Source: Nesterenkonia aurantiaca (GTDB lineage Bacteria > Actinomycetota > Actinomycetes > Actinomycetales > Micrococcaceae). Taken from it: 64,000 bases of DNA. The stretch is taken from NCBI RefSeq assembly GCF_004364585.1, contig NZ_SOAN01000002.1, positions 127,000-190,999 on the forward strand, read 5' to 3'. The number at the start of each line of letters is the position of its first letter. The stretch's first letter is position 1. Of this stretch, positions 2,332-14,155 are shown piece after piece. The position numbers were made by a program, and so were the translations under genes. Under the pieces are notes generated by a model. That model ran no database searches. It was given only the letters and a program-made list of their open reading frames with translations, and was not told the origin of the DNA.

Positions 2332-2853
2332 ATGGACATCGGTCTGCTGCTGCTGCGCCTGGTGCTGGCGCTGATCCTGTTCACCCACGCCAGCCAGAAG
2401 CTCGGCGGATGGTTCGGTGGCAACGGCCTGGCCCGCCAGGGTGAGATCTTCGCGTCCCTGGGCCTGCATCCGGGGCGCGCGATGGTCCTGGCAGCAGGGG
2501 TCTCCGAGCTCCTTGCCGCGACCGCGCTCCTGCTGGGCCTGCTCACTCCGGTCGGAGCCCTGCTGGCGGCCGGGACCATGGTGGTGGCCGGAGTGACGAT
2601 GCAGCTGAACTCCGGGAAGTTCTGGAACATCGCCGGCGGCGGAGAGTACCCCTACGTGCTGGCCGCGGCTGCCGCGGTGCTGGGTTTCACCGGGGCCGGC
2701 GCGTACTCGCTGGACGCACAGGTCTCGGGGGAGGCCTGGAGCACGGTGGTCCATGAGCCCGCCACCTGGGTGGGGGCGCTGATCCTGCTGGCGGCGCTGG
2801 TGGCCGCCGTGCCGTTCGCGCTGGTCGTCCGGCGCGCCGCAGCCGCCCGCTGA
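2332..2853 (+). CDS. DoxX family membrane protein
   Basis: A 173-residue protein with four predicted membrane helices. The N-terminus, LLLRLVLALILFTHASQKL, followed by GWFGGNG, is typical of DoxX (the small subunit-like family linked to quinone or thiosulfate redox and oxidative-stress complexes in actinobacteria). Helices cover roughly residues 3-20, 45-75, 90-112 and 138-165. AAAGG six bases upstream supports the ATG at 2332. It is monocistronic: a strong hairpin follows and the next gene is convergent. The last codons and the stop lie in the first unit of a 34-bp tandem repeat, so the Ala/Arg-rich tail may have been shaped by that repeat. Confidence 0.85.
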   Translation: MDIGLLLLRLVLALILFTHASQKLGGWFGGNGLARQGEIFASLGLHPGRAMVLAAGVSELLAATALLLGLLTPVGALLAAGTMVVAGVTMQLNSGKFWNIAGGGEYPYVLAAAAAVLGFTGAGAYSLDAQVSGEAWSTVVHEPATWVGALILLAALVAAVPFALVVRRAAAAR

Positions 2854-3050: not shown

Positions 3051-4541
3051 TCAGGCGTCGGGACCCCGCCCCTGCGCGGTATGGGTCTTCTCGGTGCGGT
3101 ACTCGGTATAGGTGTACGGGTTGTCCAGGATCTTGGTCTCCGGGACGTCGGGGCTCATGCCGGCCTCCCACTCGGCCTGTCCCAGCTCCGAGGCGATGTG
3201 CTCCACCGTCGCCTCCACGGTGCGGCGCACCTTGGCCAGATCCACATCAACAAGCTTGTGCTGATGCTTCACGATCCGGCCGTTGACCATCACGGTGTGC
3301 ACATCCCCGCGCTGGGCCTGGAAGACCACGTGGCCGTGCGGGTTCAGGATCGGGAACATCGCCGGGGAGTCGTCGTTCTTGATCAGCACGATGTCGGCCT
3401 TCTTGCCGACCTCCAGGGAGCCGATGGACTTCTCCATCCCGAGCGCCTCAGCGCCGCCATGGGTGGCCCAGCCGACCACCTGGTCGGCGCGCAGGCCCAG
3501 GTTGGTGCAGGTCTCTCCGGTGGCGTGATGCTCGAAGTGCTCCCGCGCCCGGTCCGAGCTGAGCGTGGAGCGCATCGCTGCGAACGGATCTGCGCTCCAC
3601 CAGACCGAGGTGTCCACCGAGAGTGAGACCGGGATTCCGTGCTTGCGCAGCTGCCAGGACGAGGGATAGCCCTGCCCGCAGCTGGACTCGGACTCCGCCG
3701 AGACCGAGGCCGAACCTCCGGTGGCGGCGATGCGCTGATAGGAGTCCTGGTTCAGCGTCGCGGCGTGGACGTAGACGGTCTTCTCGTTCATGAACCCATG
3801 CTCGTGCATGAGCCGGATGCCGTCGTCGTTGGTCGCGCCCCAGACCCCGGCGTGGGTGGTGGCGCCCACGCCCAGGTCTCGGGCGACCTCGAAGGCCTTC
3901 TGTTCCGGGAACTCCGGGTCACCGGTGACGTCGAAGGCCATCTGGAAGCCGAGCATGTCATCACCCAGTTGGCCGCCCGAGCGCGGGATCCGGCGGTCCA
4001 CGAAGTCGCGGAACTCACGCGAGGCGGACCATTCCCAGGGCCCGGCGTGGATGTTGCCGTAGGCGAAGACGAAGCGGCCGGCGACCTCTTGGAGCGCGTC
4101 CACGGCCGCATCGGCGTGATCCACGGTGGAGAGGCCGTGGGACCAGTCCACTGAGGTGGTGACTCCGGAGTCGATGGCCTCCACCGCGGAGAGCAGGTTT
4201 CCGGCGTAGATGTCCTCGGGGCGGAACTTCTTGCCGTGTTCGAGGTAGTTCCAGACGAAGTACTGGGTTAGCGTCCAGTCGGCACCGTAGCCCCGCATGG
4301 CGGTCTGCCACATGTGCCGGTGCGTGTCGATGAAGCCGGGGGTGATCATTCCACCCTCGGCATCGATCACCTGGGCATGCTCGGGCGCCTCGAGATCCGG
4401 GCCGATGGCCGCGATGGTGTCACCCAGGACCAGGACGTCGCCCCTGGTCAAGACGCTGTGCTGCTTGTCCATGGTCAGCACGATCCCGTTCTTGAACAGG
4501 ACGGGCGCGCCGGTGCCGTTGGATGCGGCTTCAGAACTCAT
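3051..4541 (-). CDS. TRZ/ATZ-type amidohydrolase
   Basis: A 496-residue protein of the metal-dependent amidohydrolase superfamily, cytosolic deaminases and chlorohydrolases acting on N-heterocycles or related amines. The sequence TPGFIDTHRHMWQT (about residues 67-80) supplies the first metal pair H74 and H76. HAGVWG and VHAATL provide later histidines, SVDTSVWW the aspartate, and the C-terminal GSLEVGKKADIVLI is the usual beta-sandwich closing motif. It diverges from the CoA-transferase operon, sharing a 253-bp control region that holds two matching palindromes. Co-location suggests it prepares a substrate, perhaps by deamination, for that pathway; the substrate cannot be read from the sequence. 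Confidence 0.85.
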   Translation of the reverse strand: MSSEAASNGTGAPVLFKNGIVLTMDKQHSVLTRGDVLVLGDTIAAIGPDLEAPEHAQVIDAEGGMITPGFIDTHRHMWQTAMRGYGADWTLTQYFVWNYLEHGKKFRPEDIYAGNLLSAVEAIDSGVTTSVDWSHGLSTVDHADAAVDALQEVAGRFVFAYGNIHAGPWEWSASREFRDFVDRRIPRSGGQLGDDMLGFQMAFDVTGDPEFPEQKAFEVARDLGVGATTHAGVWGATNDDGIRLMHEHGFMNEKTVYVHAATLNQDSYQRIAATGGSASVSAESESSCGQGYPSSWQLRKHGIPVSLSVDTSVWWSADPFAAMRSTLSSDRAREHFEHHATGETCTNLGLRADQVVGWATHGGAEALGMEKSIGSLEVGKKADIVLIKNDDSPAMFPILNPHGHVVFQAQRGDVHTVMVNGRIVKHQHKLVDVDLAKVRRTVEATVEHIASELGQAEWEAGMSPDVPETKILDNPYTYTEYRTEKTHTAQGRGPDA

Positions 4542-4599
4542 ATCAGCCTCCGTTGAAGATCTCTGTGATGGTGCTCACGATAGCTGTCGTTCGCACAGT

Positions 4600-4732
4600 G
4601 GACAAGGGTCCGTTTACCTCGCGAGGTCGATCTCAGGAATCCATTCCGGGGACCCTTGATCAGGTGAGCCTGGGGTTGACGGCCATGCGCAGGCGGTGTG
4701 AAACTGGTCACGGGATAAGCGGACGAGTGTCC
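4600..4732. promoter_or_regulatory. divergent control region with two GGAC-N4-GTCC palindromes
   Basis: GGACAAGGGTCC at 4600-4611 and GGACGAGTGTCC at 4721-4732 share the form GGAC-N4-GTCC followed by GT. The first lies 59 bp upstream of the amidohydrolase start, the second 63 bp upstream of the CoA-transferase start. A perfect 12-bp palindrome, ACCTCGCGAGGT, lies at 4616-4627. TTGACG at 4676-4681 could be a -35 for the plus-strand operon with a weak TGAAAC 17 bp on. The paired palindromes are candidate sites for the IclR regulator encoded at the operon's end; this is inference. Confidence 0.5.
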
Positions 4733-4794
4733 GTATGACGACGCATCCGGGCGTGACAGGGCCTGTGTGGGACTTGCAGAAAGAGGACTCCGAG

Positions 4795-6066
4795 ATGAAC
4801 CAGCACCATCCAGATGAGACCAGCGCCGGGGGTGCGCGGCCCGGAGGCGATGCTGCCGCGCAGGCCCATCAGGCCCCGCACGGGGCACAGCCCGAGAAGC
4901 CAGGCGGGAGCCTGCCGCTGGAGGGCATCCTGATCGCGGACTTCTCCCGGGTGCTCGCCGGTCCCTACGCCACCATGCTGCTCGCGGACCTCGGCGCCGA
5001 GGTGATCAAGGTCGAGGGCACCGGCGGAGACGACACCCGGACCTGGGTCCCGCCCCGCCGTCCGGACGGGGTCTCCACCTACTACGCCTCGATCAACCGC
5101 AATAAGAAGTCGATCGTGTTGGACTTCAAGGACGCCGATGACCTCGCCGCCGCCCAGGCGCTGGCGCAGCGCGCCGACGTCGTGATCGAGAACTTCAAGC
5201 CCGGCGGCCTTGAGAAGTTCGGCCTGGACTACGACTCGGTGGCGAAGGCCAACCCCCACGTCATCTACTCCTCGATCACCGGCTTCGGCACCGAGGGCGA
5301 AGGGGCGAAGTACCCCGGCTATGACCTGATCGTCCAAGCGATGTCGGGGCTGATGAGCCTCACCGGTTCCCCGGACGGCCCGCCCTACCGCGCCGGGATC
5401 AGCGTGTTCGATGTGATGGCCGGGCTGCATTCGACCATCGGCATCCTCGCCGCGCTGCGCCAGCGCGACCGCACCGGCGACGGCGCCCACGTCGAGGCGT
5501 CCCTGATGGCCTCGGCCATGTCCGGGCTGGTGAACCAGACCCACGCCTATGTGGGCGGCGGCACCACCCCGATGCGGATGGGCAACGCCCACCCCTCGCT
5601 CTACCCCTATGAGGCCATGCCCACCGCCGACGATGACGTGATCATCGCCGCCGGCAACAACACCCAGTTCAGCAGGCTCTGCATGGTGCTGGGGATCCCC
5701 GAGATCGCCCAGGACGAGCGCTTCGCCGAGGTCGGAGACCGCACCGACCGCCGTGACGAGCTGCGCCCGATCCTGCAGGCAGAGCTGGCCAAGCACACCG
5801 CCCAGGAGCTCTTCGAGAAGCTCAACGACGTCGGGGTGCCCTGCGGGCCGATCAACACCATCAAGCAGGGGGTCGAGTACGCCGAGGCGCTGGGCCTGCG
5901 GCCGGTGGTGCAGGTCGGCACGGGAGACAGCGCCGTCCCCGGCGTCCGGCACCCGCTGAGCTTCAACACCATGAACCCGCGCTATGACCTGGCCCCGCCG
6001 GAGCTGGGGGAGCACACCGAGGAGATCAAGGCCTGGCTGAAGACCGAGGAGAGGACGCCACGATGA
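4795..6066 (+). CDS. CaiB/BaiF (family III) CoA transferase
   Basis: The 423-residue protein begins its conserved part with PLEGILIADFSRVLAGPYA and continues LLADLGAEVIKVE, the N-terminal signature of family III CoA transferases, interlaced dimers that move CoA between acyl-CoA and carboxylic acids. The segment YPGYDLIVQAMSGL carries the family's catalytic aspartate (in GYD). An in-frame ATG exists 60 bp upstream at 4735, but AGAGG at 4782-4786 with 8-base spacing picks the ATG at 4795. The gene overlaps the next by four bases (ATGA), so activation of an acid to its CoA ester is probably followed directly by the neighbouring lyase. Confidence 0.9.
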   Translation: MNQHHPDETSAGGARPGGDAAAQAHQAPHGAQPEKPGGSLPLEGILIADFSRVLAGPYATMLLADLGAEVIKVEGTGGDDTRTWVPPRRPDGVSTYYASINRNKKSIVLDFKDADDLAAAQALAQRADVVIENFKPGGLEKFGLDYDSVAKANPHVIYSSITGFGTEGEGAKYPGYDLIVQAMSGLMSLTGSPDGPPYRAGISVFDVMAGLHSTIGILAALRQRDRTGDGAHVEASLMASAMSGLVNQTHAYVGGGTTPMRMGNAHPSLYPYEAMPTADDDVIIAAGNNTQFSRLCMVLGIPEIAQDERFAEVGDRTDRRDELRPILQAELAKHTAQELFEKLNDVGVPCGPINTIKQGVEYAEALGLRPVVQVGTGDSAVPGVRHPLSFNTMNPRYDLAPPELGEHTEEIKAWLKTEERTPR

Positions 6067-6968
6067 GCGCCGAAGAGCATCAGTATCAGACGCCGAGCTA
6101 CCCCACCGCACTGGGAACCTCCACCACCGAGGAGATCAGCCTGATGGGCCAGTCCCTCTCAGAGGATCTGATGGGCAAGGTCGGGTTCGCCGAGCTGGCC
6201 TTCTGGATGACCGCCACCCGCCGGCCCACCCCCGGTGAGCTGCGGACCTTCGAGGCGGTGCTGGTCGCGCTGGCCGATCACGGCTTCACCCCCACCGCGA
6301 TCGCCGCTCGGCTGACCTACCTCTCGGCCCCGGAGTCCATCCAGGGCGCCATCGCCGCCGGACTGCTGGGCGGCGGCTCCCGCTTCCTCGGGGTCACCGA
6401 GGACACCGGCAAGTTCCTGCACCAGGTGCTCGAGGCCGACGACGGCGAGCGCAGCACCGAGGCGGACTATGACGCCCTGGCGCGGGAGGCGATCACCCGG
6501 GCACGGGCCGCCGAGCAGATCGTTCCCGGCCTGGGCCACCCGGTGCACAAGCAGGGGGACCCGCGCACCCCGCGGCTGATCCAGATCGCCGAGGAGGGCG
6601 GGACCCGCGGGGAGCACCTGCGCCTGTTCGAGGCCATGGGCCGGGTCAGCGAAGAGGTGCTGGGCAAGAAGCTTCCGCTCAACGGCGCCGGGGTCTGCGG
6701 GGCAGCCCTGGCTGACCTCGGGCTTCCGGTGGACTTCCTGCGCGGCTTCGCACTGCTCGCCCGCACCGCCGGGCTGCTGGGGCAGATCGCGGAGGAGCGG
6801 CGGAATCCGATCGCCAACGACATCTATATGCATGTGGACCGGAACGCCAGGTTTGTCCCGCTGACCGGCGACGACACCCACGAGGACACCCATGAGGACG
6901 CCGAAGGGTCCGCTGAAGCTGATCACTCCGGTCATTCCGGTCATTTCGGTGAGTCGAAGGAGAACTGA
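6063..6968 (+). CDS. citryl-CoA lyase-like protein (citrate synthase superfamily)
   Basis: This 301-residue protein is shorter than citrate synthase but keeps the fold markers. PGLGHPVHKQGDPRTPRL (about residues 158-175) corresponds to the citrate-synthase GFGHxVYKxxDPR signature, and LNGAGVCGAALADLGLP matches the C-terminal active-site region. The site that carries a catalytic histidine in citrate synthase (xHGGAN) reads LLGGGSRF here, so it is unlikely to be a true synthase. This pattern matches proteins annotated as citryl-CoA lyase, which split citryl-CoA-like thioesters. The acidic His/Asp-rich C-terminal tail is an addition. It lies between the CoA transferase (4-base overlap) and the dioxygenase (2-bp gap). 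Confidence 0.75.
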   Translation: MSAEEHQYQTPSYPTALGTSTTEEISLMGQSLSEDLMGKVGFAELAFWMTATRRPTPGELRTFEAVLVALADHGFTPTAIAARLTYLSAPESIQGAIAAGLLGGGSRFLGVTEDTGKFLHQVLEADDGERSTEADYDALAREAITRARAAEQIVPGLGHPVHKQGDPRTPRLIQIAEEGGTRGEHLRLFEAMGRVSEEVLGKKLPLNGAGVCGAALADLGLPVDFLRGFALLARTAGLLGQIAEERRNPIANDIYMHVDRNARFVPLTGDDTHEDTHEDAEGSAEADHSGHSGHFGESKEN

Positions 6969-6970
6969 GC

Positions 6971-7942
6971 ATGGCAGAGCTGACCGCGGTGCTCGCGAGC
7001 ACCCACCACCCGTTCTACTACAAGGCCACCACCTCCCCGGAAGATCAGCGACCGCCCTATGCCGCGGACTGGCAGCGCAAGGTCGAGGCCTACCGCGAGA
7101 CGCTCACCGCCGCGGAACCCGACATCTTGGTGATGGTCGGGGCGGATCACTTCCACCAGCTCTGGCTGGACAACTATCCGCAGTTCCTGATCGGCAAGCA
7201 GGAGAGATGCGACGCGACCTTCTACAACGAGGAGCGCGAGTTCGGGATCCCGAAGTACACCCTCGCCGGAGACATCGAGCTCTCCCGCTATATGCACCAG
7301 GAGCTGCTGGGCAAGGACTTCGACTTCTCGGTCAGTCACGAGCTGAAGATCGATCACTCCATCATCTGCCCGATCATCACGGTCCGCCCCGAGGCGGACC
7401 TGCCGATCGTGCCGATCTACACGAACATCTTCGTGCCCCCGCTGCCCTCGCCGCGCCGGTTCTACCAGGTGGGGCGGGCCATCCGGGAGATCATCGACAG
7501 CTTCCCCAGCGACAAGAAGGTCGCCGCCATCGGCACCGGGCACCTCTCTCTGGAGCTCGGCGGACCCCGCCAGTTCGGCGAGCACGGGCCGGATCCGCTC
7601 TTCGACGCCGATGCGATCAAATGGCTCTCCACCGGCAACATCGACGCGATCCTGGCCAATGTCACCCACGAGTCGATGGCCGGGGCCGGCAACGCCACCC
7701 ACGGATTCATGGACCTGCTGCTGATGATGGGCGTCGCCGGCCCCGGGGTCCACGCCGACTACGTCGATCACCTGGATCTGTTCCACACCCGGGAGATGTA
7801 CATGACCTGGTACCCGAACAAGACCCAGGATCAGCTCGACGCGGCCGCCCGGGCTGCCGCGACCGCCCAGGCCAGCACCGGTCCGATCTACGCCACCGAT
7901 CCGGCCTGGGAGAAGTTCCGCGTGAATCAGGAGCAGGCATGA
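6971..7942 (+). CDS. class III extradiol ring-cleavage dioxygenase, catalytic (LigB-type) subunit
   Basis: The 323-residue protein fits the LigB superfamily, non-heme Fe(II) enzymes that open catecholic rings next to the hydroxyls. Early STHHPFYY supplies an N-terminal iron histidine, GADHFHQLW a second, and THESMAGAGNATHGFMDLL near residues 235-255 provides the glutamate typical of LigB. GTGHLSLELGG resembles the segment with the catalytic histidine. The next gene, overlapping by four bases, encodes the small LigA-type subunit, so the heteromeric protocatechuate 4,5-dioxygenase-like arrangement is likely. The true substrate may be a different dihydroxylated ring, because no LigC, LigI, LigJ or LigK genes follow. 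Confidence 0.85.
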   Translation: MAELTAVLASTHHPFYYKATTSPEDQRPPYAADWQRKVEAYRETLTAAEPDILVMVGADHFHQLWLDNYPQFLIGKQERCDATFYNEEREFGIPKYTLAGDIELSRYMHQELLGKDFDFSVSHELKIDHSIICPIITVRPEADLPIVPIYTNIFVPPLPSPRRFYQVGRAIREIIDSFPSDKKVAAIGTGHLSLELGGPRQFGEHGPDPLFDADAIKWLSTGNIDAILANVTHESMAGAGNATHGFMDLLLMMGVAGPGVHADYVDHLDLFHTREMYMTWYPNKTQDQLDAAARAAATAQASTGPIYATDPAWEKFRVNQEQA

Positions 7943-8304
7943 GCAAGTACTACGTCAACAAGTTTCTCTTCACCATCGATCGGGACCCTGAATGGGTGGC
8001 CAGTTATCGCGAGGATCCCCGGGCCACCGTGGCCCGCTGGGAGAAGGAGATCGGGAGCTGGCTGAATCCGGTCGAGCAGACCAGCTGGCTGGAGTTCACG
8101 CAAGAGGAGCGCGAGGCGCTCTGCACCCACGACTACGTGTGGCTCTTCGAGCACGGCGCCCACTTCTTCCTGAACCTGACCCTTTTCATCGCGCTCTTCG
8201 ACGAGGAGTACGCCGCCGCGAAGGGGCCGCTGGCGTTCCAGACGGAGATGGCGCAGAAGCTGGGCCACTGGACCGGGCGGGACTACCCCTCGGTGGCGAT
8301 GTGA
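7939..8304 (+). CDS. LigA-type small subunit of extradiol dioxygenase
   Basis: A 121-residue protein starting at ATGA overlap with the LigB-type gene. Motifs such as NKFLFTIDRDPEW, FTQEEREALCTHDYVWLFEHGAH and the helical rest match the alpha-chain (LigA) domain that caps the LigB active site in protocatechuate 4,5-dioxygenases. A longer version of this frame extends upstream through the LigB gene but is a shadow; the coupled ATG at 7939 gives the right family length. It is the last gene of the operon; a long-loop inverted repeat follows before the convergent IclR gene. Confidence 0.8.
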   Translation: MSKYYVNKFLFTIDRDPEWVASYREDPRATVARWEKEIGSWLNPVEQTSWLEFTQEEREALCTHDYVWLFEHGAHFFLNLTLFIALFDEEYAAAKGPLAFQTEMAQKLGHWTGRDYPSVAM

Positions 8305-8351
8305 GCCGCCGGCGATGAGCTGTTCAGCCCCGAAGATCGGGTGCGGCTCAC
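8301..8351. terminator. inverted repeat between convergent ligA-type and IclR genes
   Basis: GTGAGCCGC (8301-8309) and GCGGCTCAC (8343-8351) are perfect 9-bp complements around a 33-base loop. They overlap both stop codons, so it may serve as a shared terminator; the long loop lowers confidence. Confidence 0.4.
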
Positions 8352-9199
8352 TCCTGCGGTGAGGCCAGCAGCGGGAGGCGCCCGAGGTTGGCGGCGTCGC
8401 GCTCGCGAGTGTGGCGGGGCAGCGACTGCCAGCGGGTCCAGTCCGCGGTGACCGCCGCGGCGGCCTCGCGCAGCGGGGGCAGGTGCTTGCTCAGCAGCGT
8501 CTCCACGCTGGTCTCGGCCGCGTGGACCGTGGTGTTCATCGAGGCCAGCACCCTTCCGCGGCCATCCCGAACCGGCACCGCGATGGAACGGATGCCGCGC
8601 GCCAGCTCCTCGTCGGCCAGAGCATAGCCCTGCCGCTGCACCCGGTCGAGCTCCTCGAGGAAGGACTTCTGGTCCCACTGCACCACCGGAACCACCGAGG
8701 AGCGTGACGGGTCGGAGAGCCGTTCCAGGATCTCCCGGCGCTCCATGTCGGCCAGCAGCACCTTGCCCTGGGAGGTCGGCGGCGCCGGGAAACGGGTGCC
8801 GATGTCCACCCGAAGGCCGATCAGCTTGGGCACCGCGACTCGGGCCACATAGACGATGTCGGGTCCGTCCAGCTGGGACATCGAGGCCGATTCATGCGTG
8901 TGGGTGACCAGCGATTCCAGGTGCGGCCTCGCCACATCCCAGAGCCCCAGCGAGCTCACATAGGCCATGCCCAGTTCCATCACGCGGGGGGTGAGTGAGA
9001 AGAGCCCGTCATCGGAGCGCACGTAGTCCAACTCTTGAAGCGTCATCAGGATTCGCCGCGCCGTCGGACGTGCCAGATCGGTGGCCTTGGCCACCTGGCT
9101 CAGGGTCAGGCCCGCGGGATATTCCGGGGTGAACGCCCTGATGACGGACAGCCCGCGGGAGATGGCTTCGATGAACTCGGGACTTCGCTCCGGTGACAT
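8348..9199 (-). CDS. IclR family transcriptional regulator
   Basis: A 283-residue regulator: an N-terminal winged helix (SLSQVAKATDLARPTARRIL, about residues 30-50) followed by the IclR effector domain, with GTRFPAPPTSQGKVLLAD and ARGIRSIAVPVRDGRGRV as family landmarks. Members of the PcaR/PobR branch control aromatic-acid catabolism, matching the adjacent dioxygenase operon. The frame is open further upstream, but AAAGGA before the ATG at 9199 and the start of homology fix this start. It lies 10 bp behind the GntR gene on the same strand, so both are probably co-transcribed. Likely targets are the palindromes at 4600-4732. Confidence 0.9.
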   Translation of the reverse strand: MSPERSPEFIEAISRGLSVIRAFTPEYPAGLTLSQVAKATDLARPTARRILMTLQELDYVRSDDGLFSLTPRVMELGMAYVSSLGLWDVARPHLESLVTHTHESASMSQLDGPDIVYVARVAVPKLIGLRVDIGTRFPAPPTSQGKVLLADMERREILERLSDPSRSSVVPVVQWDQKSFLEELDRVQRQGYALADEELARGIRSIAVPVRDGRGRVLASMNTTVHAAETSVETLLSKHLPPLREAAAAVTADWTRWQSLPRHTRERDAANLGRLPLLASPQE

Positions 9200-9209
9200 C
9201 TGGTTCCTT

Positions 9210-9902
9210 TCAGTGGAGCTGGGTCTGGTGCTGGTCGGCACGGGCTTCGCGCAGTCGGGTCCAGGTCCGCACGAGCTGACTGAACTCCTTGACCTGCACC
9301 AGGACATGGTCCCGGGCGGTGTTCTCCGCGGTCTCGCCGTCACCGGTGCTGATCGCATTCACGATCGCGAGGTGCTCGGCCAGGGACCTGCGCATCCGGT
9401 CGGGGGCCCGGAGCTGGAGCCGTCGATAGGGCTGCAGCACGCGGCGCAGGTGGTGGGCCTGCTGGCGCAGGTACCCGTTGCCGCAGGAGTCGTAGATGAT
9501 CCCGTGGAACCAGGCGTTGGCGTAGTAGTAGCCGTCCGCGTCGCCCAGGGCCTCGAACCGCTCACATTCCTTCAGCGCCCTGCCGAGTTCGGCCAGAGGC
9601 TCACGCTCGATGCGCCGTGAGGCCAGGCGCGCCGCCATGCCCTCAAGCTCGGCCATCAGCTCGAAGCGCTCGGCCAGCTCGGGCAGGCTCAGCTCGGTGA
9701 CATAGGTGCCCTGTTTGGGGCGGATGCGCACCAGCCCGGAACGTTCCAGGGCCTGCAGCGCCTCGCGCACCGGGGTGCGCGAGCAGCCGAACTCCTGCTG
9801 CAGCTTGGCAGGGTCCAGCCGCTCGCCGGGGCCGTACTGCCCATCGACGATGGCGTTCTCCAGCGCATCGCGCACGCGCTGGGATTCCGGGACTCTGACC
9901 AT
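9210..9902 (-). CDS. GntR family (FadR/FCD) regulator, probably of malonate use
   Basis: A 230-residue protein with an N-terminal GntR winged helix (PGERLDPAKLQQEFGCSRTP then REALQALERSGLV) and a C-terminal FCD ligand domain, where WFHGII and SLAEHLAIVNAI provide metal-binding histidines. It diverges from the malonyl-CoA decarboxylase/synthetase fusion and the MadLM transporter, the same layout as MatR in rhizobial mat operons, so it is probably the malonate-responsive repressor. The ATG at 9902 has AGGAGG only four bases upstream, slightly close; an upstream ATG at 9923 lacks a site. An IclR gene follows 10 bp later. Confidence 0.85.
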   Translation of the reverse strand: MVRVPESQRVRDALENAIVDGQYGPGERLDPAKLQQEFGCSRTPVREALQALERSGLVRIRPKQGTYVTELSLPELAERFELMAELEGMAARLASRRIEREPLAELGRALKECERFEALGDADGYYYANAWFHGIIYDSCGNGYLRQQAHHLRRVLQPYRRLQLRAPDRMRRSLAEHLAIVNAISTGDGETAENTARDHVLVQVKEFSQLVRTWTRLREARADQHQTQLH

Positions 9903-10017: not shown

Positions 10018-12948
10018 ATGGCGACCACTCAAGGCTGGCTCCTGGCCGATCTGCTGCGCGGCCTCGGCGGGCACAAGTCCGAGTCCGGGGTCGGAACCGC
10101 GGCCCAGGCGCCGCTTGATCAGCTCACCGCAGCCTGCGCCGTGCTGATGGGGGACCTGGGGGAGGCGTCCATGCGGGCCGTGGCGGAGCGGGCTCTGGCC
10201 ACGTACCGGGAGCTCGACGACGACGCCCGGACCGAGTTCTTCACGCACCTGCTTCAGGCCTACTCCGTGGAACCGGAGGCGCTGCGCCGCGCCTACGCGA
10301 CGTGGGACTCCAGCGAGGCCCAGGCCGATCTGGCGGACCTCTTCGAGGCCAGCGAGCCTCGGCGCCAGGCACTGCTGCGCCGGCTCAACCATGCCCCGGA
10401 CGGCACGCTGCACCTGGTCAACATGCGCGCTGATCTGCGCCGGATCCTGCGCGGCCGCGCCGATCTGGCGCCGCTGGACCGCGACTTCCGGCACCTGTTG
10501 AGCTCCTGGTTCAACCGCGGATTCCTGCGCATGGAACAGCTCGGCTGGGATGCGCCCCGGGAGATGAAGAACCACCTCCTGCGCTACGAGAAGGTCCACC
10601 CGATGCGGGACCTGAATGATCTCAAGCGCCGGCTCCGGCCGAAGGACCGGACCTGCTACGCGTTCTTCCACCCCGCCACCGGGGACCTCCCGCTGATCTT
10701 CGTCGAAGTGGCGCTGGTCAGGGGGATCCCCGGGGCCGTGGAGCCGCTGCTGAGCCCGACCGAGGCGCTCGCCCCGGCCAAGGCTGACACTGCGGTGCTG
10801 TATTCGATCAACAACTCCTTAGACGGCCTGGCCGGGATCTCCTTCGGCAGCCTGCTGATCAAGCAGGTCATCGACCAGGTCTCCACAGAGCTGCCGCATC
10901 TTGAACACTTCGTCACGCTCTCCCCGATCCCTGGGTTTCGGGGCTGGCTGCGCGAGCAGGCCCGCACCGCGAGCTCCCCGGAGCTCACCGCGCTGCACGT
11001 GGACCTCTCCGAGCTCCACGGGCCCGCAGACCTCGCGGGATCCGAAGACACAGGGCAGCCCGGGGCGCAGTTGCTGCAGGGCCGGCTCCGCGCCGCACTC
11101 GCCCGCTACATCGCTCTCGAACGCCGGTCGGACGGGCAGCCGCTGGACCCGGTGGCCCGCTTCCACCTGGGCAACGGTGCCACCGCCTGGCAGCTGCACT
11201 GGCCGGCCAGCAGCGCGGACTACATGTGGGACCAGTCCTACGGGGCGATGATCACCTACCGCTATGACCCGTCCCTGGTGGAGCGGCGCCACGAGAACTA
11301 CGTCCGACACGGAACCATCGCTGTAGGGGACCAGGTCACGGGCCTGCTTCCAGACAGGACAGAAGACATCCTCAGCACCGAAGACATGCACAGCACAGCA
11401 GACATCCGCAGCGAGAAGGGAACCTCACCAGTGGACAACCACGTCGACGGCATCTACCAGGGCTTCATCCAGCAGGCACAGACGCACCCGGAGAAGCCGC
11501 TGTTCCACCTTTCCGACGGGCGCACCCTCACCTACGCGCAGGTGCTCCACACCTCGCGGCGGATCGCCGCGAAGCTGATCGGCGACGGCGTGCTCCCGGG
11601 TGACCGGGTGGCCGCCCAGGTGGAGAAGTCCCCGGAGGCCATCGCGCTCTACCTGGCGACCCTGCAGGTCGGTGGGGTCTACCTGCCGCTGAACACCGCC
11701 TACACCGGCGCCGAGATGGACTACTTCATGGCCGACGCCGCCCCGCGGGTGCTGGTCTGTGACCCGAGCAAGGCCGCGGAGCACGTGGCGCGCGGCAAGG
11801 ACGGGATCGTCGTGGAGACCCTCGGTACGGCAGGGGAGGGCACGCTGCTCGCCGCCGAGCAGGAGCACACCGAGATCGCCGTGCTGCGCGCGTCAGATCC
11901 CGGCGCGATCCTCTACACCTCCGGGACCACCGGGCGCTCCAAGGGTGCCGTGCTGACCCAGGGCAACCTCGCGGCGAACTGCGCCTCGCTGATCCAGTCC
12001 TGGGAGTACACGTCCGAGGACGTGCTGATCCACGCGCTGCCGATCTTCCACATCCACGGACTGTTCGTGGCGGTCAACATGACCCTGGTCTCCGGCGCCT
12101 CGATGATCTGGCTGCCCAAGTTCGACCCCGACGCGGTGCTCGACGCGATGCCCGAAGCCACCGTGCTGATGGGCGTGCCCACCTTCTACACCCGGCTGCT
12201 GAGCACAGAGCGGCTCAGCGCCGAGGCCTGCACCGGGATCCGGCTCTTCGTCTCCGGCTCGGCCCCGCTGCTGGCCAGCGACCACGAGGCCTTCGAGGCA
12301 CGCACCGGGCACGCCATCCTGGAGCGCTATGGGATGACCGAGACCGGGATGAACACCTCGAATCCCTACCGCGGCGGCCCGCGCCGGCCTGGCACCGTGG
12401 GGCATCCGCTGCCCGGCGTCGAGGTGCGGATCGTGGACCGGGAGACCCAGGCGACGCTGCCCCAGAACGAGGTCGGCATCATCGAGGTTCGCGGCGGCAA
12501 CGTGTTCGCCGGGTACTGGAACATGCCGGAGAAGACCGCCGAGGAGTTCCGCGAGGACGGGTTCTTCGTCACCGGGGACCTCGGGGTGATCGATGAGCAG
12601 GGCTACCTGAGCATCGTGGGCCGTGACAAGGACCTGGTGATCTCTGGAGGCTTCAACATCTACCCCAAAGAGGTCGAGGGGCTCATCGATGACCACCCCG
12701 GGGTCACCGAGTCGGCAGTGATCGGGGTGCCGCACCCGGATCTGGGCGAAGGACTGGTCGCCGTGGTGGTCCCCGCAGGCGAGGGCGTCCCGGACGAGAC
12801 CTCGATCCTGCAGGCGCTCGCCGGTGACCTGGCCCGTTTCAAGCAGCCCCGCGCCGTCCGCTTCGTCGATGCGCTGCCGCGCAACGTGATGGGCAAGGTG
12901 CAGAAGGCCGAGCTGCGCAAGCAGTACACAGAACTCTTCAGCAGCTGA
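10018..12948 (+). CDS. fused malonyl-CoA decarboxylase / malonyl-CoA synthetase (MatA-MatB fusion)
   Basis: This 976-residue protein joins two enzymes normally encoded separately. Residues 1 to about 445 match malonyl-CoA decarboxylase (for example LVNMRADLRRIL, SINNSLDGLAGISFG, HFVTLSPIPGFRGWL and VARFHLGNGA with a late YRYDPSLVERRHENY). Residues about 478-976 match an AMP-forming malonyl-CoA synthetase: SGTTGRSKGAVLTQGN near 634, YGMTETGMN, TGDLG, and NVMGKVQKAELR at the end. Together they activate malonate to malonyl-CoA and decarboxylate it to acetyl-CoA. The linker contains an 18-bp repeat coding for a six-residue motif, and an in-frame GTG at 11431 preceded by GAAGGGAA could start a free synthetase. 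MadL/MadM follow. Confidence 0.9.
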   Translation: MATTQGWLLADLLRGLGGHKSESGVGTAAQAPLDQLTAACAVLMGDLGEASMRAVAERALATYRELDDDARTEFFTHLLQAYSVEPEALRRAYATWDSSEAQADLADLFEASEPRRQALLRRLNHAPDGTLHLVNMRADLRRILRGRADLAPLDRDFRHLLSSWFNRGFLRMEQLGWDAPREMKNHLLRYEKVHPMRDLNDLKRRLRPKDRTCYAFFHPATGDLPLIFVEVALVRGIPGAVEPLLSPTEALAPAKADTAVLYSINNSLDGLAGISFGSLLIKQVIDQVSTELPHLEHFVTLSPIPGFRGWLREQARTASSPELTALHVDLSELHGPADLAGSEDTGQPGAQLLQGRLRAALARYIALERRSDGQPLDPVARFHLGNGATAWQLHWPASSADYMWDQSYGAMITYRYDPSLVERRHENYVRHGTIAVGDQVTGLLPDRTEDILSTEDMHSTADIRSEKGTSPVDNHVDGIYQGFIQQAQTHPEKPLFHLSDGRTLTYAQVLHTSRRIAAKLIGDGVLPGDRVAAQVEKSPEAIALYLATLQVGGVYLPLNTAYTGAEMDYFMADAAPRVLVCDPSKAAEHVARGKDGIVVETLGTAGEGTLLAAEQEHTEIAVLRASDPGAILYTSGTTGRSKGAVLTQGNLAANCASLIQSWEYTSEDVLIHALPIFHIHGLFVAVNMTLVSGASMIWLPKFDPDAVLDAMPEATVLMGVPTFYTRLLSTERLSAEACTGIRLFVSGSAPLLASDHEAFEARTGHAILERYGMTETGMNTSNPYRGGPRRPGTVGHPLPGVEVRIVDRETQATLPQNEVGIIEVRGGNVFAGYWNMPEKTAEEFREDGFFVTGDLGVIDEQGYLSIVGRDKDLVISGGFNIYPKEVEGLIDDHPGVTESAVIGVPHPDLGEGLVAVVVPAGEGVPDETSILQALAGDLARFKQPRAVRFVDALPRNVMGKVQKAELRKQYTELFSS
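11365..11418 (+). repeat. 18-bp x 3 coding repeat in the fusion linker
   Basis: Three 18-bp units at 11365-11382, 11383-11400 and 11401-11418 encode DILSTE, DMHSTA and DIRSEK. They lie exactly between the two enzyme domains, so the linker appears to have grown by tandem duplication. Confidence 0.8.
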
Positions 12949-12990
12949 ATGCTCGCTCAAGACACCTCAACCGCAAGTCAGGAGTAGACG

Positions 12991-13392
12991 ATGGTTCTCT
13001 ATGGAGTCGCAGCGCTGGCGCTGTGCATGCTCGTGGGAATGCTGATCGGTGATGTCCTCGGGGTCGCCGGAGGCGTCGATGCCAATGTCGGCGGGGTCGG
13101 CTTCGCCATGATCCTGCTGGTCGTGGCCACCGACCGGCTGCGCAAGCGAGGCTTGTTCCCCAAGCCCACCGAACAGGGAGTGCTGTTCTGGTCCGCCCTG
13201 TACATCCCGATCGTGATCGCCATGGCGGCCACGCAGAACGTCGCCGAAGCGATCGGCGGCGGGCCGATGGCCGCGATCGCCGGTCTGGGTGCGCTCGCCG
13301 CGGGCGCCGCCCTGGTGCCGGTGATCTCACGCATCGGAGGACAGTCTGAACCGCTGCCCGCGATGACCGAGGCAGAGAAGGCGGAGGCCTGA
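12991..13392 (+). CDS. madL: malonate transporter subunit MadL
   Basis: A 133-residue membrane protein with four hydrophobic helices. It begins VLYGVAALALCMLVGMLIG and contains GGVGFAMILLV, features of MadL, the small subunit of the sodium-dependent malonate:Na+ symporter first described in Malonomonas rubra. AGGAG lies upstream of the ATG. It follows the malonate-activating fusion by 42 bp and precedes MadM by one base, the standard madLM order, so import and activation of malonate form one operon. Confidence 0.9.
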   Translation: MVLYGVAALALCMLVGMLIGDVLGVAGGVDANVGGVGFAMILLVVATDRLRKRGLFPKPTEQGVLFWSALYIPIVIAMAATQNVAEAIGGGPMAAIAGLGALAAGAALVPVISRIGGQSEPLPAMTEAEKAEA

Positions 13393-13393
13393 G

Positions 13394-14155
13394 ATGGACA
13401 TCATTGCTGATGTGCTCGAACGCAACGGCCTGCTCTTCGCCTTCGTGGTGGTCGGGGCGCTGATGATGATCTCGGGCTGGCTCTCCAAGACGCTGACCCG
13501 AGGACGCCTGCAGGGCTCCGCCATCGCGATCATGCTCGGTCTGGTGCTGGCCTACTTCGGCGGCATCAACACCGGCGGCGAGGCCGGCATGGCCGATATC
13601 GCCATCTTCAGCGGCCTGGGCCTGATGGGCGGCGCGATGCTGCGCGACTTCGCCATCGTGGCCACCGCCTACGGCGTGGACCTCCAAGAGATCAAGAAGG
13701 CCGGCGCCGCCGGGGTGTTGGCACTGCTGGCCGGCATCGTGGTCTCCTTCGTCGTCGGGGCCGCCGTCGCAGCCGCCTTCGGCTACACCGACCCGGAATC
13801 GATGGCGACCATCGGCTCCGGTGCCGCGACCTACATCGTGGGACCGGTCACCGGCACCGCGGTGGGCGCCAGCTCCGAGGTGATCGCGCTCTCGGTGGCC
13901 GCCGGCCTGATCAAGGCGGTGGTGGTCATGGTGGGCACCCCGATGATCGCCCCATTCATCGGGCTGAACAACCCCAAGTCGGCCATGGCCTATGGCGGAC
14001 TGATGGGCACCACCTCAGGGGTGGCCGGTGGACTCGCCGCCACGGACAAGCGCCTGGTCCCCTACGGGGCGATGACCGCGACCTTCTACACCGGACTCGG
14101 CTGCCTGCTGGGCCCCTCGATCTTCTACTTCGCACTGGTCGGGCTCTTCGGCTGA
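13394..14155 (+). CDS. madM: malonate transporter subunit MadM
   Basis: This 253-residue protein is almost entirely hydrophobic with about eight helices. The stretch FGGINTGGEAGMADIAIFSG and the later GSGAATYIVGPVTGTAVGAS are characteristic of MadM, the larger subunit of the malonate:Na+ symporter. It starts one base after the madL stop and ends the operon; a strong hairpin follows at 14187-14218. Confidence 0.9.
   Translation: MDIIADVLERNGLLFAFVVVGALMMISGWLSKTLTRGRLQGSAIAIMLGLVLAYFGGINTGGEAGMADIAIFSGLGLMGGAMLRDFAIVATAYGVDLQEIKKAGAAGVLALLAGIVVSFVVGAAVAAAFGYTDPESMATIGSGAATYIVGPVTGTAVGASSEVIALSVAAGLIKAVVVMVGTPMIAPFIGLNNPKSAMAYGGLMGTTSGVAGGLAATDKRLVPYGAMTATFYTGLGCLLGPSIFYFALVGLFG

Follow-up and report, generated by a model that had tools for sequence, protein, structure and literature searches.

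A conserved bacterial gene set joining a LigB-like ring-cleavage protein to a CoA transferase and a citryl-CoA-lyase relative: a possible ring-opening route for polyhydroxylated phenols

Extradiol cleavage of an aromatic ring places a hydroxyl beside the new carboxylate, and a second carboxylate is formed only if the distal carbon bears a hydroxyl, whereas intradiol cleavage always gives two carboxylates. In class III extradiol dioxygenases such as DesB and LigAB, the metal is presumably held by a His-His-Glu triad, and the histidine of a GG(L/M)SH motif presumably acts as the acid-base catalyst. A central pathway through 1,2,3,5-tetrahydroxybenzene (THB) is reported as fungal only in the available part of a recent account (PMC13094099). 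In this fungal route, according to the available part of a 2025 review, gallate is converted to THB by PhyA, and THB is proposed to be converted to 5-hydroxydienelactone by a DUF3500 protein (PMC12388069). Here we describe a gene set in Nesterenkonia aurantiaca, within a stretch of 64,000 nucleotides of contig NZ_SOAN01000002.1 (positions 127,000 to 190,999; hereafter the window) of a 2.95-Mb genome, where a LigB-like protein is encoded beside a CoA transferase and a relative of citryl-CoA lyase. The set is kept in many soil, plant-associated and marine bacteria and looks like an undescribed ring-opening route. Among open-licence papers, we found no description of this bacterial gene set, nor any paper tying citryl-CoA lyase to dioxygenase ring cleavage or hydroxyquinol, or dioxoadipate to a dioxygenase.

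Four plus-strand genes of the window overlap or nearly touch. They encode a family III (CaiB/BaiF) CoA transferase (CAT; 4795–6066, alternative start 4735; PF02515, 402 bits), a citryl-CoA-lyase-like protein (CCL; 6063–6968; PF00285, with 293 bits against NF004868 'citryl-CoA lyase', cut-off 193), a LigB-like ring-cleavage subunit (LigB; 6971–7942; PF02900, 100 bits, cut-off 26.3) and a small LigA-like protein (SML; 7939–8304), whose match to PF07746 LigA is weak, at 21.2 bits, below the 25.3 cut-off. CAT and CCL overlap by 4 bases, as do LigB and SML, with a gap of 2 bp between CCL and LigB. An amidohydrolase gene (AMH; 3051–4541, minus strand; PF01979/PF07969, with 402 bits against NF006056, cut-off 391) diverges from them. 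An initial annotation, made from the letters alone, had noted these overlaps, the 2-bp gap and the divergent amidohydrolase, and the open reading frames (ORFs) confirm this layout. The set is followed on the minus strand by an IclR regulator gene of the PcaR/PcaU/PobR type (8348–9358 as the longest ORF; 256 bits against TIGR02431, whose cut-off of 284.75 is not reached), the true start of which is probably later, since the longest ORF overlaps that of a GntR gene lying between the IclR gene and the malonate genes of the window. The IclR gene belongs to the conserved set although it lies outside the coordinates first noted. With regard to CAT, comparison with the succinate-glutarate CoA transferase model NF052585 gave 384 bits, short of the curated cut-off of 750; the protein looks intact, with Asp177, which we take to be the catalytic aspartate of family III CoA transferases, among the columns conserved in at least 95% of 73 rows.

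A scan of a one-genome-per-species collection with a LigB alignment gave 109 candidates, of which the best 80 loci were kept, and all counts out of 80 refer to these, with neighbour genes detected by tblastn. SML was found near LigB in all 80 loci, CAT in 73, CCL in 74, IclR in 72 and AMH in 61; CAT and CCL occur together with LigB/SML in 73, so that the four-gene set singled out by the initial annotation is conserved in other genomes. The order CAT-CCL-LigB-SML was observed in 35 loci, CCL-CAT-LigB-SML in 18, and CAT/CCL divergent from LigB-SML in 17, with LigB-SML-CCL-CAT (3), LigB-SML alone (6) and CCL-LigB-SML (1) as rarer arrangements. Going by the names of the sequence records, these loci are actinobacterial and mostly alphaproteobacterial. 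The nearest are from Nesterenkonia, with LigB 95–97% identical to that of the window, while in rhizobial and rhodobacterial loci LigB is 68–77% identical, CAT only 31–40% and CCL 33–41%. Conservation of the set is not due to chance, and the recurrence of the same functions in different orders, with diverged CAT and CCL, is evidence that the genes are linked by function and not by position alone. The LigB family itself is patchy, with matches (E 0.001) in 21 of 396 Actinomycetota genomes, 47 of 385 from the class of genome G396 and 32 of 197 in the family sample; near-orthologues (E <1e-140), the query or centre genome included, number 9, 1 and 9 in these samples, respectively. Within the genus of the window, a near-orthologue is carried by 7 of the 11 genomes sampled, the source genome counted. 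As a separate observation, four rhizobial loci (L089, L104, L109 and L110) have LigB/SML near cytochrome P450 genes, without CAT and CCL, and L110 also has an FAH-family gene and a VirA-like sensor kinase.

The evidence that LigB/SML opens a ring comes from loci in which another enzyme takes its place. Searches were seeded with CCL instead of LigB, to avoid selecting for LigB, and yielded 44 CAT+CCL loci, with LigB/SML in 28, a hydroxyquinol-type intradiol dioxygenase in 11, neither in five and both in none. The first Actinomycetota sample contributed 11 close CCL places in CAT+CCL loci (LigB/SML 6; intradiol 3, L180, L181 and L182; neither 2, G069 and G123), after four distant places of its 20 (37–41% identity) had been left out and with L183–L186 (G032, G221, G046, G274) lacking CAT. 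In the class of G396, five of 11 CCL places have CAT (LigB/SML 1, in G396 itself, locus L046; intradiol 2, L211 and L214; neither 2, L212, with a canonical LigA/LigB-like pair, and L213); L215–L219, which lack CAT, and L220, where the one CAT-like match is distant and lies 7 kb off, were not counted. A second actinomycete sample, with CCL in 44 of 394 genomes, had 45 CCL places, 42 of them new contexts. Fourteen of the 42 are without CAT, and 28 have CAT+CCL (LigB/SML 21, intradiol 6, neither 1, L271). Genome G1022 provides two of the 44 loci, on separate contigs, and G123 was counted once though split over two contigs. Conversely, an intradiol gene was found at 0 of 86 LigB-selected loci, and LigB-alignment searches found no near-orthologue in genomes G161, G226, G075, G441 and G632.

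The sets that carry one or the other dioxygenase can be closely matched. Loci L293 and L296 share the one-strand order flavin monooxygenase, C–C hydrolase, AMH, ring cleaver, CAT and CCL, where the ring cleaver is LigB-SML in L293 and an intradiol gene in L296; the monooxygenase match in L293 extends to the end of the examined stretch. Similarly, the AMH, CCL, CAT, YciI and TRAP genes of the intradiol set L211 are 64–77% identical to those of the Martelella LigB set L108. Two of the intradiol partners were compared with solved structures and matched PnpC best (240 and 218 bits), followed by hydroxyquinol 1,2-dioxygenases, with catechol-type enzymes at 135 bits or less; the remaining nine were identified through tblastn matches to the same or related intradiol queries. 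Since LigB/SML is displaced by an intradiol dioxygenase in otherwise matching sets, it is very probably the ring-cleaving step. Conservation and displacement together bear out the initial proposal of one linked catabolic unit, whose functions are very probably ring opening, CoA activation and C–C cleavage, and we consider it highly probable that these three steps form a conserved pathway.

LigB, CCL and AMH depart from their families at positions expected to be catalytic, and the plain LigAB dioxygenase and plain citryl-CoA lyase of the initial annotation both lack canonical catalytic residues. The fold of LigB is that of DesB and LigAB. H12, H60 and H129 are retained in all 80 orthologues, and H191, N241, H272 and E275 are likewise invariant, while the position of the glutamate metal ligand is Gly245 and that of the catalytic histidine in GG(L/M)SH is Leu194, again in all 80. 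Canonical references (L113, L114 and L212) keep the metal glutamate, and so do, together with GGxSH, 20 of the 22 readable paralogue rows (17 of the original 39 were off-frame and dropped). Two more distant LigB/SML pairs with other neighbours, L112:8001-9163 (34%) and L115:6001-7160 (30%), show the same losses of glutamate and histidine, and the altered site is the mark of a larger LigB subfamily that includes them. In CCL, LNGAG stands in place of LNVDG, and the position of the aspartate of N-V-D-G, presumably the catalytic one in citryl-CoA lyases, is alanine or serine in all 74 rows (the window and 73 others), with His159 and Arg168 of the family retained. As for AMH, H74, H76, H142, H230, H259, E285 and D310 are found in 59 of 59 rows (the window and 58 others). 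The HxH, H, H and D metal ligands are therefore kept, but the glutamate of HxxE, which along with these ligands we take to be a feature of COG0402-type deaminases, is present in none of them, which speaks against deamination as the first step, as had been suggested. AMH is a non-canonical amidohydrolase of the NF006056/PRK08204 group, for which a hydrolase, lactonase or hydratase step is proposed.

CCL relatives also occur in other company. Some have, in the place of CAT, an AMP- or PaaK-like ligase as partner (assigned in part by eye; L183–L186, L215–L216, L219–L220 and eight of L280–L292), an AMP-ligase match being present in 8 of the 14 CCL contexts without CAT. Some of these ligase-paired relatives lie near VOC proteins, and the catalytic aspartate is also missing where checked (L183, L184 and L186). 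On the Cupriavidus necator plasmid pBB2 (L223:7965-12137), CCL is found with an AMP-binding protein, a divergent intradiol dioxygenase and IclR, followed by CaiB, HMG-CoA lyase and LeuC.

What the set degrades can be approached from the displacement. Downstream enzymes so alike would be expected to act on one and the same compound, in which case LigB and the intradiol enzyme should form an identical product, and the ring product is reasonably likely to be a hydroxymuconate common to both kinds of dioxygenase. The two cleavage outcomes agree on a ring with three vicinal hydroxyls, and we accordingly favour, with a probability of roughly 0.55, a central catabolic pathway for a polyhydroxylated benzene of this kind, most likely THB or a close relative. 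Because the partner family seems to prefer hydroxyquinol, the simplest such ring would be THB, giving 2,4-dihydroxymuconate, that is, 2,4-dioxoadipate; THB itself as the substrate is a tentative choice. In this proposed pathway, ring opening by LigB/SML would come first, with 2,4-dihydroxymuconate (2,4-dioxoadipate) or its lactone as the predicted product; the displacement argues strongly for the cleavage itself. AMH, or in some genomes a CocE/NonD hydrolase, could hydrolyse a lactone or ester form, and CAT, judged by its family, would transfer CoA onto the dicarboxylate. CCL might then split the acyl-CoA with water into acetyl-CoA and oxaloacetate, or into malonyl-CoA and pyruvate, and the PcaR-type IclR protein would be expected to control the pathway. 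Accessory genes for a flavin monooxygenase, a C–C hydrolase, a quinone reductase, a transporter and malonate use may feed in the substrate, keep it reduced or use the product. A fully specified version is rather doubtful, namely a bacterial THB pathway where the metal site of the LigB-fold enzyme has no carboxylate (His12/His60/His191 being conceivable ligands), the hydroxymuconate formed is the one made by the intradiol dioxygenase, and the Asp-less CCL splits 2,4-dioxoadipyl-CoA hydrolytically; such a cleavage by an Asp-less relative of citryl-CoA lyase would be unprecedented.

Several neighbouring genes are consistent with the THB-type pathway. Downstream in the window lie a fused malonyl-CoA decarboxylase/malonyl-CoA synthetase (10018–12948, plus strand), possibly linked to the set, and the malonate transporter subunits MadL (12991–13392) and MadM (13394–14155), both on the plus strand, all assigned by family scan. 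Malonate genes are found near the set in six of the nine Nesterenkonia loci among the 80, at the same position as in the window (10018–14155), and independently in Mesorhizobium (L047). A Pacificitalea plasmid (L228), which has no CAT, CCL or AMH, carries an intradiol enzyme of the same group with an FAH-family protein, a malonyl-CoA decarboxylase/synthase and a YciI protein 37% identical to that of set loci. This content is as expected if the product can yield malonate, since hydrolysis of 2,4-dioxoadipate would give malonate and pyruvate. NADPH-FMN reductases, WrbA or quinone reductases recur near the sets and would fit an easily oxidised polyphenol. MhpA-type monooxygenases, together with a hydrolase resembling, by eye, 2,6-dihydroxypseudooxynicotine hydrolase, also recur, as expected for the deacylation and hydroxylation of acylphloroglucinol-like compounds. 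The naringenin (fde) and isoflavone (ifc) pathways were considered in view of the flavin monooxygenase and C–C hydrolase of some loci and set aside, since their ring opener, in the available parts of the sources, is described as a putative glyoxalase (PMC11069340, PMC11303751). Four of the 80 loci, and also L107, carry a CocE/NonD hydrolase; AMH is missing from each of these five, which suggests that AMH performs a hydrolysis.

Other neighbours touch the pathway less directly. An ORF at 2332–2853 (plus strand) encodes a DoxX-like membrane protein, named by eye; similar ORFs lie near the set in 11 of 80 loci, and a DoxX_2 protein near L047. About 0.4–3.2 kb upstream of the window (L192:6788-9619) are genes for a maleylacetate-reductase-like iron-containing alcohol dehydrogenase (Fe-ADH; 53% identical to the P. 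chlorophenolicus enzyme), a VOC dioxygenase-like protein and an esterase-like protein, possibly a hydroquinone-type unit near the set. Contig C6 of the same genome has a pair of intradiol dioxygenase domains, probably the subunits of a protocatechuate 3,4-dioxygenase. A MetE-like protein recurs near CCL (L107:8959-9984, Meth_synt_2; L185 near 9803; L213:3946-6095; L269 near 3277), and we would guess at an O-demethylase for methoxyphenols. A LeuD-like small subunit lies near or right after the set in L038, L041, L056, L065 and L106; no LeuC was seen by eye beside those of L038 or L041.

A number of points weigh against the THB-type pathway. To our knowledge, no activity has been assigned to any member of the set. 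LigB lacks the glutamate ligand and the catalytic histidine throughout and may therefore act by something other than ordinary extradiol cleavage, and in CCL the aspartate responsible for the acetyl-CoA enolate is missing. The intradiol tree is poorly resolved (2 of 14 inner branches well supported) and gives no firm count of independent swaps. Among the five loci with neither dioxygenase, the contig of L271 ends about 150 bases after CCL, G069 and G123 have no dioxygenase nearby, and in G576 and G645 a canonical LigA/LigB-like pair and a VOC protein, respectively, are found instead. Likewise, the 14 contexts of CCL relatives without CAT have neither ring cleaver, apart from a short partial intradiol match in L294. 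The malonate linkage is limited to two lineages and L228, and only two of the 86 LigB-selected loci have an FAH match nearby, that of L071 being weak (29%), with a further match near L269. Nineteen of the 80 loci have no AMH nearby, and CocE is present in only four of these, leaving 15 without both. Finally, no THB-forming enzyme is seen among the window genes scanned.

The altered LigB site also gives room to the best surviving alternative, which we nonetheless judge unlikely: if LigB cleaves in the intradiol manner, hydroxyquinol itself becomes a possible substrate. LigB/SML would then convert 1,2,4-trihydroxybenzene to maleylacetate in a hydroxyquinol pathway without maleylacetate reductase, where CAT would make maleylacetyl-CoA and CCL split it into acetyl-CoA and maleate. 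The resemblance of the tested intradiol partners to hydroxyquinol 1,2-dioxygenases and the unusual metal site in 80 of 80 LigB proteins agree with this, as do the maleylacetate-reductase-like gene and the VOC protein upstream in the same genome. However, we know of no class III extradiol enzyme that cleaves intradiol, a maleylacetate reductase match is found near only five Nesterenkonia loci and L083 (27%) among the 86 LigB-selected loci, and the malonate genes of L228 and L047 would go unexplained.

A carboxylated ring, as the initial annotation had it, is improbable. LigAB would open gallate or protocatechuate to 4-carboxy-4-hydroxy-2-oxoadipate, a citrate-like tricarboxylate, and CAT and CCL would replace the LigK aldolase. 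The nearest solved structures are indeed gallate dioxygenase DesB and LigAB, and a CAT/CCL pair of Niveispirillum adjoins a protocatechuate 4,5-cleavage-like set; that set, though, retains a LigK-like gene (by eye), and LigB is only about 25% identical to the canonical gallate and protocatechuate enzymes. The interchange of LigB/SML with hydroxyquinol-type intradiol enzymes points to a hydroxymuconate-type dicarboxylate, and CCL would here be expected to yield acetyl-CoA and 2,4-dioxoglutarate, a poor product. No positive evidence was obtained for cleavage of 4-carboxy-4-hydroxy-2-oxoadipyl-CoA, and the single CAT/CCL locus found next to a LigA/LigB/LigC/LigI/LigJ/LigK-like set (L221; gene names by eye) has not lost the LigK-like gene. 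Within the scope of the search, the ten window genes scanned, none was LigC, LigI, LigJ or LigK.

A heterocyclic substrate fares worse still and is very improbable: AMH would deaminate or open a pyridine or pyrimidine diol and LigB/SML cleave it. AMH does belong to a deaminase/chlorohydrolase group, and there are precedents, compared here by description, in the available part of one source, namely KpiC, a PF01979 (Amidohydro_1) protein reported as an extradiol dioxygenase for 3,4-dihydroxypyridine in 4-hydroxypyridine degradation (kpi), and PydA of mimosine breakdown, assigned to PF02900 (PMC7356986). Against it stand the deaminase glutamate missing from 59 of 59 AMH rows and partner genes for carbocyclic-phenol enzymes (MhpA-type hydroxylase, hydroxyquinol dioxygenase), and this part of the initial annotation is not upheld. 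That LigB/SML is no oxygenase but another enzyme or a regulator in the LigB fold, like Memo1, is hardly credible, given that it is swapped with an intradiol dioxygenase in matching sets and never found with one in the loci examined.

The original finding is real and was under-stated, the exact substrate and products being what we infer. If the THB-type pathway is correct, a route for opening the rings of highly hydroxylated phenols, whose sources would be flavonoids, tannins, syringyl lignin or algal phlorotannins, is common to soil, plant-associated and marine bacteria, and it has escaped naming because the family labels of its genes all mislead. Such a route would be the bacterial counterpart to a pathway now listed as fungal only. 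It would contribute two new enzyme chemistries, ring cleavage by a LigB-fold protein lacking its carboxylate ligand and C–C hydrolysis by a protein of the citrate-synthase fold, and would be a clear natural example of one task performed by two unrelated dioxygenases.

Compared with the described systems, the set shares with DesB and LigAB the LigB fold and a small alpha-type partner (SML, in 80 of 80 loci, below the LigA cut-off), and differs in the Gly245 and Leu194 substitutions, in a new invariant His191 and H-T-x-E motif, in the low identity and in having the beta gene precede the alpha gene. With citryl-CoA lyase (Hydrogenobacter CCL, 6hxp, and the C-terminal domain of ATP-citrate lyase) it shares the family and the conserved His159 and Arg168, with alanine or serine in place of the catalytic aspartate. 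The hydroxyquinol pathway, with its hydroxyquinol 1,2-dioxygenase and maleylacetate reductase (e.g. L230, L231 and L232), has an intradiol enzyme of the same family as the swapped sets; the 11 swapped sets have instead CAT and CCL, and no maleylacetate reductase match except for a 28% Fe-ADH in L214. The β-ketoadipate pathway (PcaIJ and PcaF, under PcaR) resembles it in the PcaR-like regulator and in the proposed transfer of CoA to a C6 dicarboxylate with cleavage to acetyl-CoA, while the set has a family III CoA transferase and a citrate-synthase-fold protein, with no thiolase among the window genes scanned. The fungal THB pathway, as given in the available parts of its two accounts (PMC13094099, PMC12388069), would be alike in the proposed ring substrate and in a product of the hydroxydienelactone/dioxoadipate type; its ring opening is ascribed to a DUF3500 protein (spelt DUF3550 in one of the accounts), whereas the bacterial set would use LigB/SML or an intradiol dioxygenase followed by CoA-dependent steps.

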